From positions 2,976,001 through 3,040,000 of the forward strand of contig NZ_CP062221.1 of the NCBI RefSeq assembly GCF_021590045.1: a stretch of DNA of 64,000 nt. Reading direction: 5' to 3'. The notes beneath the pieces were generated by a model, which was not told the DNA's origin, did not search any database, and worked only from the letters and a program-made list of their open reading frames with translations. This document shows, piece after piece, positions 39,809 through 52,270 of this stretch. Every line of letters starts with the position of its first letter. Within the stretch, counting starts at the first letter, position 1. A program made the position numbers and the translations under genes. Source of the stretch: Cellulomonas palmilytica. GTDB lineage: Bacteria; Actinomycetota; Actinomycetes; Actinomycetales; Cellulomonadaceae.

Positions 39809-40032
39809 GAGGCGGCCCTCGAGCCGATCGGCACGACGTTCGACTTCTCCGCGCGGTGCGAGCACAGCTGCCCGGCCTCCCACGCCGCGAGGCAGGCCGG
39901 CTCGATGAGCCAGCGGCCCTTGCGGGTGCGCTGCTTGCCGTGCAGTGTCCCGTCCGCGAGCGCGCGGCGGATCGTGTCCGGGTGTCGGCCCGAGGCCGCA
40001 GCCGCCTGGTCGGCGGTCAGGTCGCCGATCAC
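39805..40032 (-). CDS. Excisionase-like / HTH_17 DNA-binding protein
   Basis: A 75-residue protein; GTG 40032 overlaps the stop of the Cro-like gene (GTGA). The winged-helix pattern LTADQAAAASGRHPDTIRRA followed by DGTLHGKQRTRKGRWLI is that of HTH_17/excisionase-like proteins: a helix-turn-helix with a following basic wing. As second gene of the leftward early operon it may act as an excisionase or as an early regulator. Integration-excision control by it has not been shown; its place away from int is common in actinophages. Confidence 0.72.
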   Translation of the reverse strand: MIGDLTADQAAAASGRHPDTIRRALADGTLHGKQRTRKGRWLIEPACLAAWEAGQLCSHRAEKSNVVPIGSRAAS

Positions 40033-40298
40033 GACGCCCTCCGCGTGACCGTTGCGGTGTGCTCCGCGCGGCGGGTGATCTCCGACGCGGTGAGCCCGAG
40101 GATCTGGGCGACGTCGCCGAGCAGCGACGGACTGAACGCGATGTGGCCGTTGAGCCGGGCGGAGAGCGTCGCGCGGCGGAGCCCGAGGGTGTCGGCGATC
40201 CCGGTTACCGTGACCCCCTGCTGCCGAGCGATCTCGGCGCGCACCTCTTCCGCGACGGCCTCGTCGAGGGTGGTGAGCCCATTTCGGTTCGTTGCCAT
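40029..40298 (-). CDS. Cro-like HTH regulator, first gene of leftward early operon
   Basis: An 89-residue protein. The HTH is seen at residues about 34-55 (GIADTLGLRRATLSARLNGH), and the C-terminus is basic. The ATG at 40298 is placed about seven bases after CAAGGT, a candidate -10, so the mRNA may be leaderless. Codons 4-7 contain one copy of the operator-like decamer. By position and size it is the Cro counterpart of the repressor that is read in the other direction. GTG at 40304 is the alternative start. Confidence 0.8.
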   Translation of the reverse strand: MATNRNGLTTLDEAVAEEVRAEIARQQGVTVTGIADTLGLRRATLSARLNGHIAFSPSLLGDVAQILGLTASEITRRAEHTATVTRRAS

Positions 40299-40368
40299 GC
40301 GCACACCTTGGACCCATTTCGGTTCAGCGTCAACCCCCTTGTGCCGGGTGAACCGAAATCGGTACGGT
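40281..40368. promoter_or_regulatory. Divergent immunity switch with three operator decamers
   Basis: The decamer ATTTCGGTTC occurs at 40281-40290, 40316-40325, and in inverted form at 40350-40359. Leftward promoter candidate: TTGACG (40333-40328), 17-base spacer, CAAGGT (40310-40305). Rightward candidate: TTGTGC (40339-40344), 18-base spacer, TACGGT (40363-40368). The middle and right operators each lie in one promoter spacer; the left one lies in the Cro-like coding start. Both mRNAs would begin at the ATG codons. This reads as a lambda-like switch; assignments are inference from spacing and repetition. Confidence 0.75.
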
Positions 40369-40375
40369 TGTGCGC

Positions 40376-40777
40376 ATGGCCAGAGTCCCGAAGCCCCTAG
40401 AGCCGCTCGACCTCGAGATCGCCGACGTGCTGAACGAGGCCGTGGGACAGTCGGGCATGAGCCGCCGCGAGCTCGCGCTCCAGCTCGGCATGTCGATGAA
40501 CCGGATCGGCATCATCCTGCGGAAGGAACCCCCGCCGGCGACCGTCGGCGAGGTCGGTCTCCTGGCATCGATCGCGGGCCTGTCCGCGTCGCAGGTGATC
40601 GCCACCGCGGAGGAACGCCTCGCAGCCAAGGCGGGCACCCGCGCTCTGCGACTGGTTCCCGACCAGATCGAACATTCGTTCGAAGTAGATGGTCTGGTCA
40701 CCCTCAACCCCGCCGCGTCGGATGCCGATGACGTTGACCCTGACGCCGAGGTCGAGGCGCAGCAGAGCGAGCCGTGA
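40376..40777 (+). CDS. Immunity repressor (XRE-type HTH)
   Basis: A 133-residue protein read rightward from the switch. An XRE-like HTH lies at about residues 29-50 (MSRRELALQLGMSMNRIGII), after a short N-terminal helix; a second helical part (VGEVGLLASIAGLSASQVIATAEE) follows, and the tail is acidic and flexible. There is no LexA/CI-type self-cleavage domain, so inactivation is likely to depend on the ImmA-type protease encoded next, as in ICEBs1-like elements. ATG 40376 sits at the predicted transcript start, suggesting leaderless translation. Confidence 0.78.
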   Translation: MARVPKPLEPLDLEIADVLNEAVGQSGMSRRELALQLGMSMNRIGIILRKEPPPATVGEVGLLASIAGLSASQVIATAEERLAAKAGTRALRLVPDQIEHSFEVDGLVTLNPAASDADDVDPDAEVEAQQSEP

Positions 40778-41175
40778 TGGGAGAGTGCGTGGACGAGATG
40801 CTCGAGGTCGCGCGTGAGCGCGGTGTACGTGTCGCGTGGCGCGACCTGGGGCGGCGGAACGGCGAGTACCATTCGACCGGTCTCATCCTGCTCAACCCCA
40901 AGCGCAGCCAGACCGTGCAGCGCGTGACGCTCGCGCACGAGCTCGGGCACGCGAAGTACGGGCACGCGTGGACCGACGACCCCTCGGAGCACGCGCGCCA
41001 GGAACGCCTCGCGGACGAGTACGCCGCCGCGCTGCTCATCGACGCGCAGGACTACGCCCTCGCCGAGGCCGTCGTCGGCCCGCACGTCGGCGCGCTGGCG
41101 CGCGAGCTCGGCGTCACCGCGAGCATCGTCCAGGCGTGGCAGCGCGTCGCTCGGCGTCGCAGGAGGAGTGCATGA
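40777..41175 (+). CDS. ImmA/IrrE-family metalloprotease
   Basis: A 132-residue protein with the HELGH zinc-metalloprotease motif (His54-His58) in VTLAHELGHAKYGHAW, and a downstream Glu in ERLADEYAAALL, the typical third ligand helix of ImmA/IrrE proteins. These proteases cleave their partner repressors after DNA damage. The ATG at 40777 overlaps the repressor stop (TGATG), strong evidence for a functional pair. The C-terminal part is a helical, basic segment. The protein is full-length for stand-alone phage ImmA. Confidence 0.88.
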   Translation: MGECVDEMLEVARERGVRVAWRDLGRRNGEYHSTGLILLNPKRSQTVQRVTLAHELGHAKYGHAWTDDPSEHARQERLADEYAAALLIDAQDYALAEAVVGPHVGALARELGVTASIVQAWQRVARRRRRSA

Positions 41176-41281
41176 CGGCGCGTCGCGGGCCGTTCACCCA
41201 GCGGAGTGAAGCGGCGATAGCGGCCTCAAGAGGACAGCACTGGCTGTCGACGACCGGTGCGACGACAGAGGGGGTGCGTCC

Positions 41282-41767
41282 GTGGTCGCAGTGAGCTCCG
41301 GAGAACCACCCACGCGCTCCTGCCGGCAGATGGACGGGAGGGCGGGCACGGGCGGCACGTGGTCGCACTGCCGGGGCCGCAGTCCGCGGAGCCTGAACTA
41401 CTGGATCGCCGAGCTCAACGCGCTGATGAGCGCGTGCAGCACGGCGGACGGCCGGACTCTCAAGGCCGAGTTGCGGCGTCTCATGCAGCGCGCCGAGCAG
41501 GGCGATCTCCGGTTCGGCCGCGGTCAGGATGTCGATCGCATGGTCACGGCCAAGACAGTCCTCGAGATCCGGGCCCGGCGGAACGTGGGCATCACCGTTG
41601 GAGACGACACAGGGGACCGCGTCGTGCGGCTCTACTTCTCGGAGCCCGAGCATGCGCCGGACATGCTGCTGGCTGCGAAACTGGGGTGGAAGCACCCCGA
41701 GGGCAAGACCGAACAGAACGAGCACGCCGCCGAAGCCGCCGCCCGCGTGAGGGATTTCTTCACCTGA
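41282..41767 (+). CDS. RelE/HigB-superfamily toxin-like protein
   Basis: A protein of up to 161 residues (GTG 41282; ATG 41330 is an alternative, since the first 15-35 residues look non-conserved). The core LNYWIAELNALMS, RTLKAELRRLMQRAEQG, AKTVLEIRARRN, DRVVRLYFSEPEHAPDMLL and AKLGWKHPEGKTEQNEHA follows the RelE/HigB pattern: an N-terminal helix pair, LEIR strand, RLYF strand and a final helix. Such toxins cleave mRNA at the ribosome. The next gene encodes an XRE antitoxin, and toxin-first order is typical of HigBA. Function rests on pattern and context. Confidence 0.68.
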   Translation: MVAVSSGEPPTRSCRQMDGRAGTGGTWSHCRGRSPRSLNYWIAELNALMSACSTADGRTLKAELRRLMQRAEQGDLRFGRGQDVDRMVTAKTVLEIRARRNVGITVGDDTGDRVVRLYFSEPEHAPDMLLAAKLGWKHPEGKTEQNEHAAEAAARVRDFFT

Positions 41768-41855
41768 ACGGTGGCCACGTGCACCCAACTGCACATGGCA
41801 AGATGCGTGACGCGTGGTGTCGGAGGACTGTGGTACCGGCACACCAAGGAAGGGG

Positions 41856-42260
41856 ATGACGGTGGACCTTGACGAGATGCTCGGCTTCGACCCGAACAAC
41901 CGTGACGACCGGCACGCCGAGATCCTGGTAGACGAGCACGACGAGCTTCTTCGGCTGCTGGTCGAGGCGCGGCGCAGACACAACCTGGACCAGGACGACG
42001 TTGCCCTGCTCATGGGCATCGACCGCAGCGGCGTCTCGCGCATCGAGTCGGGCAGCCGCGATCTTCACCTGTCGACGCTGCGTCGGTACGCCTTTGCGGT
42101 CGGCGCGGTGATTCGCCACCAGGTCGAGGACATCGACACCGTCATCCGACGCGAGCGCGAGGCAGCGGCAGCTGGCTCCCTGCGCGCGCTCCCCTCCGAA
42201 TGGGCGACGCCCCGCGGCTTCCGCAGCGAGAAGCACACGCTCCCCGCGAGCTCGCGGTGA
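41856..42260 (+). CDS. XRE-family antitoxin (HigA-like)
   Basis: A 134-residue protein. ATG 41856 or GTG 41862 lies directly after AAGGAAGGGG; the GTG has better spacing. The HTH is clear: VEARRRHNLDQDDVALLMGI followed by DRSGVSRIESGSRDLHLSTL, with the DLHLSTLRRYAFAVGA helix typical of HigA/XRE proteins. The C-terminal 35 residues (from about residue 100) form an extension with Trp (PSEWATPRGFRSEKHT) not needed for an HTH. In toxin-antitoxin-chaperone systems an antitoxin extension of this kind is bound by the chaperone. The stop overlaps the next start (GTGA). Confidence 0.75.
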   Translation: MTVDLDEMLGFDPNNRDDRHAEILVDEHDELLRLLVEARRRHNLDQDDVALLMGIDRSGVSRIESGSRDLHLSTLRRYAFAVGAVIRHQVEDIDTVIRREREAAAAGSLRALPSEWATPRGFRSEKHTLPASSR

Positions 42261-42742
42261 CCGACTCGACCTACCCCGGCATCCCGATCGCCAGCAACGC
42301 GCCTGACACCATGCTGGCGGCCGTGGATATCGTGCGCTCCATCATCCAGCCGGTGACGGGAGACCGCGAGGCCGAGGCCCGCGAGCACGACAACGACGTC
42401 TGGACGATCTACGGAGATCAGTTCAGAGTGACGCCCGATCGACTGGCGTTCCGACTCTTCGGCGACCTCTCGATCTTCGACAACGGCTGGTTCGTGGGCG
42501 TGACGGTTGCAGTCATGGTCGACATGCGTGGCAACGACAGGCCCGCCACGCTTCCTGACGGCACATGGTCGCCTGCGACGGAGAACGCCCTGACCGAGCG
42601 TCTCGGCGCCTGGGCGTCTCACGTCATGTGGGACGTCGCGTCGTCGTGCGCACGGCGCCTCGCGGCGCAGAGCTACGCAAGCAGCCCCCACGTCCCCATC
42701 ACCACACCGGAAGCGGTCCTCCTACTCTCCGAAGAGGAATAA
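42257..42742 (+). CDS. Third gene of the toxin-antitoxin operon, possibly SecB-like
   Basis: A 161-residue soluble protein; GTG 42257 overlaps the antitoxin stop. After a helix (TMLAAVDIVRSIIQPVTG) come long beta strands (DQFRVTPDRLAFRLFGDLSI; NGWFVGVTVAVMVDMRG), and the C-terminal part has GAWASHVMWDVASSCARRLA and HVPITTPEAVLLL. This order, extended strands, then a long helix, then a Pro-rich end reading P-V-P-I, resembles SecB, whose C-terminal helix ends before a PVNF-type segment. SecB-like chaperones are the third gene of TAC systems. The resemblance is by pattern only; a structure prediction is needed. Confidence 0.55.
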   Translation: MTDSTYPGIPIASNAPDTMLAAVDIVRSIIQPVTGDREAEAREHDNDVWTIYGDQFRVTPDRLAFRLFGDLSIFDNGWFVGVTVAVMVDMRGNDRPATLPDGTWSPATENALTERLGAWASHVMWDVASSCARRLAAQSYASSPHVPITTPEAVLLLSEEE

Positions 42743-42745
42743 CCG

Positions 42746-43852
42746 GTGGCGTGGACCCGCAAGCTCGCATCGGGGTCGTATCAAGGGCTGTTCCGCGATC
42801 GCGACGGGAAGGTCCGGACCGCTGACGGCGGACCTTGGTCGCGGAAGGCCGAGGCGATGCGCCGCGCGGGTGAGGCAGAGGCTGCGGCGCGCGCTCTGGG
42901 GTGGCGCGACCCCGCGGCCGCGGGCGAGCTGTGGGGTGCCTGGCGCGTCGAATGGGAGAAGTCCCGGACCGTCGAGCCCTCGACGAAGCGCGCCGACGAC
43001 GGCCGCCTCACGAAGCACGTTGAGCCGCGCTGGGGGCGAGTCCCGCTCGTCGAGATCACGCGCCACGACGTCAAGGCCTGGTACGCCGAACTGCAGCGCG
43101 GCGGACTCTCCCCCGCCACCGCCCAACGGTGCGTCCACCTGCTGTCCGCCTCGCTCAACGCCGCCGTCGACGCCGGCGTGCTCAGCGCGAACCCCGCAGC
43201 ACGCTTGCGTCTGCACGTGCCCGCGCCCTCCACCGAGCGCTACCTGAGCCACGAGGAGTTCGACGCGATCGCCGCACAACTCGACGAGCCATGGGCTCGC
43301 ATGGCCCGGCTGCTTGTCGGCACCGGCCTTCGCTGGGGCGAGGCCGCTGGCCTGCACGCGCACCGCGTGACGCCGAGGTGGGTAGAGGTCGTCGACGTCT
43401 GGGACCAGCACGGCCGGCAGATGCGCTCCTACCCGAAGGGCAAGAAGCGTCGACAGGTCCCCCTACCCGCGTGGCTCGTGCTCGACACCGCGAGCGCGAC
43501 CTGCGGCCTGCGTCACGCGCGCGGGGTGTGTCGCGCGGGGCTCGTCGTCACGTCACCCGGTGGCTCCGTGATGGACGCCGGGCGGTTCCGCTCGAAGTGG
43601 GACGCCGCGTGCCGGGCCGCCGGCGTCGGGCACGTCCGCGTGCACGACCTGCGCCACACGTACGCGTCGTGGCTCCTGCAGGCTGGCGTCTCCCTCGCTG
43701 AGGTCGGGCGCCTGCTCGGGCACACCTCGCCGCTCACGACCCAGCGGTACGCACACCTCGCCGAGACACCGTCCGCAGCCGTGCTCGGCGCGCTCGGCGC
43801 CCACGGCCCCGCCCTCGTCGACGACGGGGCCCCGCGCCTGCGCGTCGTCTGA
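42746..43852 (+). CDS. int: Tyrosine integrase
   Basis: A 368-residue site-specific recombinase. The catalytic residues are Arg196 (GTGLRWGE), Lys near 231 (SYPKGKKRRQVPL), His300 and Arg303 (HDLRHTYAS), His326 (LLGHTS) and Tyr335 (TTQRYAHL). The N-terminal part includes an arm-binding-like region and the SAM-like core-binding domain (HDVKAWYAELQ; LLSASLNAAVDAG). The gene starts GTG four bases after the upstream gene and ends 469 bases before the tRNA-Met fragment, as expected for an integrase next to its att site. No frameshifts. Confidence 0.95.
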   Translation: MAWTRKLASGSYQGLFRDRDGKVRTADGGPWSRKAEAMRRAGEAEAAARALGWRDPAAAGELWGAWRVEWEKSRTVEPSTKRADDGRLTKHVEPRWGRVPLVEITRHDVKAWYAELQRGGLSPATAQRCVHLLSASLNAAVDAGVLSANPAARLRLHVPAPSTERYLSHEEFDAIAAQLDEPWARMARLLVGTGLRWGEAAGLHAHRVTPRWVEVVDVWDQHGRQMRSYPKGKKRRQVPLPAWLVLDTASATCGLRHARGVCRAGLVVTSPGGSVMDAGRFRSKWDAACRAAGVGHVRVHDLRHTYASWLLQAGVSLAEVGRLLGHTSPLTTQRYAHLAETPSAAVLGALGAHGPALVDDGAPRLRVV

Positions 43853-44320: not shown

Positions 44321-44372
44321 GGAGCGGGCTCATAATCCGTGGGTCGTGGGTTCAAGCCCCACCTGCCCCACC
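44321..44372 (+). other. Right attachment site: 3' part of a tRNA-Met(CAT) gene
   Basis: The sequence includes an anticodon loop CTCATAA (44329-44335) closed by a stem, a perfect T-arm (GTGGG, loop TTCAAGC, CCCAC) and the 3' acceptor strand CTGCCCC with the following A, ending at 44372. The 5' half is missing: no GGGGCAG acceptor strand or D-arm lies upstream. This is therefore a duplicated tRNA 3' end, the right att core. The intact tRNA-Met should be at the left prophage border outside the window. Confidence 0.85.

Positions 44373-50578: not shown

Positions 50579-52270
<1,692 letters not shown>

Follow-up and report, generated by a model that had tools for sequence, protein, structure and literature searches.

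The locus and its genes

The 64,000-nucleotide stretch of the Cellulomonas palmilytica genome analysed here (contig NZ_CP062221.1, positions 2,976,001 to 3,040,000 of the forward strand), referred to below as the window, carries three plus-strand genes, A, B and C, in the lysogeny module of a prophage. We assign a probability of about 0.8 to the interpretation, already proposed in an initial annotation, that this trio is a toxin–antitoxin–chaperone (TAC) system in which A is the toxin, B a tail-bearing antitoxin and C a SecB-like chaperone. The proposal is supported by the SecB-fold model of C, by the presence of the intact trio in 16 of 19 loci and by a tryptophan (Trp) in the C-terminal tail of 15 of 18 B proteins. 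The features of the trio, in window coordinates, are the following:

41282..41767, plus strand: gene A, likely toxin, 161 aa (profile comparison; unnamed family)
41779..41794, no strand: candidate operator in the A–B gap, inverted repeat GTGCA-N6-TGCAC
41856..42260, plus strand: gene B, likely antitoxin, XRE-type helix-turn-helix (HTH) domain and C-terminal tail, 134 aa from ATG 41856 (HTH_3, E 9.4e-9)
42129..42257, plus strand: tail-encoding end of B (43 codons), a candidate for a chaperone-addiction (ChAD-like) segment, with Trp116 encoded at 42201-42203
42257..42742, plus strand: gene C, predicted SecB-fold protein, 161 aa, likely dedicated chaperone (structure model, profiles)

The longest frame of gene B opens at GTG 41814; ATG 41856 is the better start and matches the starts of most relatives. 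The start codon of gene C is GTG 42257, and the tetranucleotide GTGA at 42257-42260 is common to this start and the stop of B, the overlap that had been noted initially.

Conservation of the three-gene unit

Six-frame whole-genome searches, contig scans and tblastn gave 18 further loci, that is, 19 with the window. All three genes are open, in the same order and on one strand in 16 of the 19, and the carriers are the likely temperate actinophages JuJu, Agueybana, Juicebox and Wrigley as well as a plasmid of Curtobacterium and further genomes. Since the same gene order recurs in other genomes, the arrangement goes beyond chance, and A-B-C is a conserved unit in phages and bacteria. Genes B and C overlap or lie at most 6 nt apart in all 16 intact loci (with a 4-nt overlap in seven), and 16-113 nt separate A from B, these distances being dependent on start codons that were partly of our choosing. 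Two of the incomplete loci are L022, where the frame of B is broken and the third gene is short (105 aa), and L062 of phage BeeGee, which has only a 69-aa gene at the toxin position.

Membership was assessed with profiles from which the tested protein had been removed, the close sisters L021 and L023 being kept in each other's profile. Every one of the 19 A proteins, and 16 of the 18 C proteins, outscored all controls, which were the remaining proteins of the set, Gp49 proteins and 200 shuffles each. JuJu was reached through the B protein of the window and Juicebox through that of JuJu, independently of C. A swapped toxin in the L007 set was considered and rejected, as the left-out profile recognizes the L007 toxin as an A protein with 31.7 bits against 7.1 for the best control. 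Four loci were dropped: L005, L009 and L010, where weak matches lie inside open frames of 785, 632 and 515 aa, and L066 of phage Skog, where a B-like match falls in a 300-aa gene without a clear trio.

The family is rare. The A profile was found in six of 394 genomes of the class and the C profile in two of 394, the window's own genome counted. A search of 5.8 billion proteins with A returned a single relative (P0003, 55% identity, on a 1,570-bp contig), and the same search with C returned nothing beyond the C protein of the window itself. Profile searching added P0007, the other new identifiers (P0004-P0006) being rows already present in the query alignment. With tblastn, C found no match in phages or plasmids and A none in plasmids. 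Scanning viral contigs with A revealed one locus, L011; scans with C, the C alignment and P0004 revealed no locus, and the C protein of L011 matched only itself.

Gene C encodes a predicted SecB-fold protein

Neither Pfam, NCBIfam, PHROGs nor PADLOC named a family for C, and no match above the cut-off of PF02556 (SecB) was obtained for the window's C or any of nine C proteins; the family libraries likewise gave no name above cut-off to those relatives of A or C that were scanned. The Curtobacterium C protein scored E 0.013 against PF02556 (15.9 bits, the cut-off being 26) and E 0.002 against Rv1957 by sequence. The AlphaFold2 monomer model of C (pLDDT 81) has a SecB fold, and 19 of the best 23 chains retrieved with it by Foldseek are SecB or the Rv1957 chaperone, the remaining four belonging to two proteins of unknown function. 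We therefore regard C as having a predicted SecB fold, which is the outcome anticipated for the third protein, and its P-V-P-I-like end, pointed out earlier, is indeed present as PHVPITTPE. In the BFVD fold search, the best match was a 151-aa protein, the length of the Juicebox C gene, followed by one of JuJu of 182 aa; these were equated with Juicebox gp27 and JuJu gp44 by phage and length.

Two further observations concern this fold. The model of C is matched by the streptococcal proteins of unknown function in PDB entries 2o2a and 2hng just as closely as by SecB. In Agueybana (L061), an 87-aa gene at 2477-2740, immediately preceding the toxin gene, looks by eye like a second SecB-like protein reduced to its C-terminal half; no Pfam match was obtained for it.

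A SecB-like protein of a phage might also be an export or assembly chaperone whose pairing with a toxin–antitoxin system is accidental. The predicted fold itself speaks for this, as does its presence in some other phage proteins (the BFVD matches, and Wrigley_46 according to PMC9670969). We nevertheless hold this explanation to be very improbable, since C comes next after B in 16 of the 19 loci and PF02556 matches none of 98 genomes from the class (that of the window among them), which leaves C with no apparent SecB export pathway to join.

Gene B and its C-terminal tail

The description of the second gene as an XRE protein with a C-terminal extension stands. In addition to the HTH_3 domain, B matches phrog_1373 ('transcriptional regulator', E 2.4e-14), and about 43 residues follow the HTH domain, the boundary of the tail having been set by us 12 residues past an RRYA motif. 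Tails of 34-98 residues after this domain are present in all 18 B proteins examined. Tryptophan accounts for 22 of 940 tail residues, as against six of 1698 in the rest of B, and is followed directly by A, N, S or T in 15 of the 22 cases by our count. In the TAC system of Mycobacterium tuberculosis, the chaperone-binding stretch is reported to include W108 and Y114 (PMC5105189), and the ChADs of different TACs are described in the same source as lacking significant similarity to one another. The resemblance of the tryptophan-bearing B tail to the ChAD of the M. tuberculosis system is suggestive.

Candidate operator in the A–B gap

The inverted repeat of the window has 5-bp arms, of a kind often given by chance; a pattern test found one occurrence against 0.09 expected, with a pattern derived from the site itself. 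Palindromes with arms of 7-10 bp occur in the A–B gaps of Agueybana (L061), Wrigley (L065), and Juicebox and Curtobacterium (these two being L063 and L064), for example AGTAGAGGTTAACCTCTACT in Wrigley. These gaps look as if they held an antitoxin operator and an internal promoter. A search for promoter and terminator consensus sequences found none.

Gene A and the evidence against a TAC system

Gene A is the weak point of the TAC interpretation. The motifs VLE(I/L)R, VRLYF(S/T)EP, K and EQ..HA..A..R are common to its close relatives, but the Curtobacterium A protein matches Gp49 at E 0.084, under the cut-off, and no Pfam match above cut-off, PF05973 (Gp49) included, was found for any of the ten A proteins scanned. 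An A profile of 19 sequences scored 26.8 against a profile of 31 Gp49 (PF05973) proteins, collinear over 113 columns, whereas the best of 60 column shuffles reached 13.7, the reversed A profile 11.7, the B profile 11.5 and the C profile 8.5; without the L007 and Curtobacterium sequences the score was 24.4. The 19-sequence set was enlarged post hoc and aligned in another MAFFT mode, the 60 shuffles were made on this set only, and the Gp49 set omits L029 (short) and L058 (internal stop). With 13 A sequences plus that of L007 the score was 25.1, and the controls of the 13-sequence round gave 13.1 (C profile) and 11.2 (reversed A).

A number of results weigh against the interpretation. For A, the Pfam, NCBIfam, PHROGs and PADLOC libraries offered no convincing family (best phrog_30724, E 0.013), the AlphaFold2 model is unreliable (pLDDT 42.6), and Foldseek with this model returned no fold match. 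The hhalign probability of the relation to Gp49 is 19.7% with the 19-sequence profile, and the profile of 13 sequences scored 16.6, inside the range of its 20 shuffles (best 17.5). For C, only modest TM-scores link the model to the best 23 chains (0.30-0.46, normalized by query length), PDB searches with sequence profiles of nine C proteins and with the single C proteins of the window and L011 found no SecB, and the C proteins of L017 and Juicebox were missed by the left-out profile, the third gene of L017 being assigned by position alone. For B, nine to 11 tryptophan-bearing tails out of 18 would be expected at 1.4-2% tryptophan, and the tails of L011, L004 and L018 have none. Finally, L019, the third incomplete locus, contains A and B with an unrelated DUF6941 gene in the place of C, which means that the chaperone is not universal.

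Because the 26.8 score comes with a low probability and the 13-sequence score falls within its shuffles, A is graded as a likely, not a demonstrated, distant relative of RelE/HigB (Gp49) on the strength of profile similarity. The RelE/HigB-like pattern seen initially in the first gene finds tentative support in the comparison of the larger profile; neither a Pfam match nor a fold match accompanies it.

The absence of a C-like third gene from L019 and the three tails without tryptophan would also suit an ordinary two-gene toxin–antitoxin pair whose antitoxin works without C, the SecB-like gene being a tightly linked helper with another job such as stabilizing a phage protein. We consider such a pair unlikely, given that C directly follows B in 16 of 19 loci distributed over phages, a plasmid and bacterial genomes, and that every B protein examined extends past its HTH domain. 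The DUF6941 protein of L019 (528-950) could be an alternative partner of the same pair.

The prophage and the neighbourhoods of related loci

The surroundings of the trio in the window are as follows:

40029-40304, minus strand: second small regulator, divergent from the plus-strand cluster (phrog_4583 'transcriptional repressor', E 7.7e-9)
40370..40777, plus strand: HTH protein, likely prophage repressor, first of the plus-strand lysogeny cluster (HTH_31 E 0.0077, under cut-off; phrog_686 E 3.5e-4, weaker regulators)
40774..41175, plus strand: ImmA/IrrE-type metalloprotease (Peptidase_M78 E 6.7e-14; phrog_87 E 9.1e-19)
42746..43852, plus strand: tyrosine integrase (Phage_integrase E 1.2e-19; phrog_1 E 8e-58)
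44329..44372, plus strand: attR, 44-bp copy of the 3' part of tRNA-Met (second copy at G000:C1:2972197-2972240)

The plus-strand cluster thus runs HTH protein, protease, A, B, C, integrase, with the trio between the ImmA-type protease and the integrase as the initial annotation had it, and the structural genes lie on the minus strand. Seven of nine minus-strand proteins scanned have a PHROG match (terminase, portal, head maturation protease, major head protein, tape measure, ParB-like protein and small regulator) and two have none. The other copy of the 44-bp repeat lies 48.1 kb upstream of 44329-44372, within an intact tRNA-Met gene. As this repeat stands at both ends, the trio sits in an integrated prophage with head and tail genes, whose left end is 3.8 kb beyond the window, and its placement in a prophage lysogeny module is confirmed. 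A 40-codon open frame (41172-41294, ATG at about 41173) is present between the protease gene and gene A, and a 12-bp repeat in six copies (51709-51804) is found in the chromosomal part to the right of the prophage.

Comparable surroundings are seen in the phages. After the trio, JuJu, Agueybana and Wrigley each carry a protease gene, then one small gene (encoding an HTH protein in Agueybana and Wrigley) and an integrase gene on the opposite strand; in JuJu and Wrigley, a gene named immunity repressor comes before the trio. The trio of Juicebox lies between a protease gene, two genes away, and an integrase gene, much like that of the window. The annotated phage and plasmid records examined list A and C as 'hypothetical protein' and enter B as a regulator, an HTH protein or a hypothetical protein.

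The proximity of protease and integrase genes in the window and these four phages, together with the phrog_1373 match of B, allows the alternative that the trio is a lysogeny-regulation cassette, with B a phage transcription regulator, A and C its partners and no toxin involved. The distant likeness of A to Gp49 and the defence genes found beside the trio in four loci make this improbable. These neighbours are SIR2 and HerA in L002, a type I restriction gene and PD-Lambda-5 in L022, a type I restriction gene in L004 and a DpdE/ZorD-like helicase in L020; the four loci were picked by eye, seven of nine scanned proteins matched defence models, and no enrichment is claimed. In L002 (MT837022.1, 3441-6403), an unannotated fecal record of a phage collection, SIR2 and HerA come after the trio with one unassigned gene between, and this record may represent a bacterial defence island and not a phage.

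Proposed mode of action

In a TAC system of this composition, A, as a likely RelE/HigB-type toxin and presumably an RNA-cutting one, would halt translation. B would neutralize A and repress the operon, perhaps through the operator in the A–B gap, while C, by analogy with known TACs, would bind the tail of B and keep the antitoxin folded; without C, the antitoxin would misfold or be degraded and A would be freed. Such a release could follow from capture of C by a protein of an incoming phage, or from loss of the prophage. The prophage would then be hard to lose, and infection by other phages would be aborted, as reported for CmdTAC and HigBAC of Escherichia coli. The location of the trio among the lysogeny genes is compatible with expression in the lysogen and, by extension, with a role in prophage stabilization or exclusion of other phages.

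More tentatively, it is possible, if doubtful, that actinophage lysogeny modules hold a fast-diverging TAC branch missed by annotation, in which the chaperone serves as the sensor: proteins of rival phages would draw it off the tail, the RelE-like toxin would be freed and superinfection aborted, with toxin, tail and chaperone co-diverging so that each prophage watches different rivals.

Comparison with known systems

SecB-like chaperones have been linked to phage sensing in E. coli, in CmdTAC (PMC11618068) and HigBAC (PMC11980606). The C protein of the window indicates that the SecB family model can overlook a chaperone of this kind. Phage isolates of Gordonia and Corynebacterium, likely temperate, in which the set lies close to protease and integrase genes, offer ready material for asking whether TACs guard prophages and exclude rivals; such sets may stabilize a resident prophage or protect the cell against other viruses. 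In the literature covered (titles and beginnings of abstracts, most subscription journals lying outside), no TAC is described in actinophages. The nearest statement is a single-gene remark on Gordonia phage Wrigley: the predicted structure of Wrigley_46, which by position is gene C of locus L065, is reported as SecB-like (PMC9670969). In the passages of that source covered here, Wrigley_46 is not grouped into a TAC with Wrigley_48 (A) and Wrigley_47 (B), and the word 'toxin' occurs zero times in the main text.

The Rv1955-Rv1956-Rv1957 system consists of HigBA1 and a SecB-like chaperone (PMC5105189). The present trio differs from it in that the toxin has no Pfam match, the chaperone has no PF02556 match and the carriers are a prophage and phages; the tail sequences are unrelated, which is reported as usual among TACs (PMC5105189). 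HigBAC of E. coli C496, with a HigB toxin, a HigA antitoxin and the SecB-like chaperone HigC, follows the same plan, and is reported to be activated by the lambda major tail protein, which triggers abortive infection (PMC11980606). In contrast to HigBAC, toxin and chaperone fall here under the family cut-offs, and phage sensing by the trio would be an analogy. CmdTAC of E. coli ECOR22, which acts in phage defence, likewise combines a toxin, a tail-bearing antitoxin and a SecB-like chaperone; CmdT, however, is an ADP-ribosyltransferase, and CmdA is described as two helices and an unstructured domain (PMC11618068, PMC9519451), whereas B is an XRE HTH protein. TAC systems are thus already known, and the trio is a divergent, largely unannotated branch of them, distinct in that its toxin and chaperone are missed by family models and in its carriage by a prophage and actinophages.
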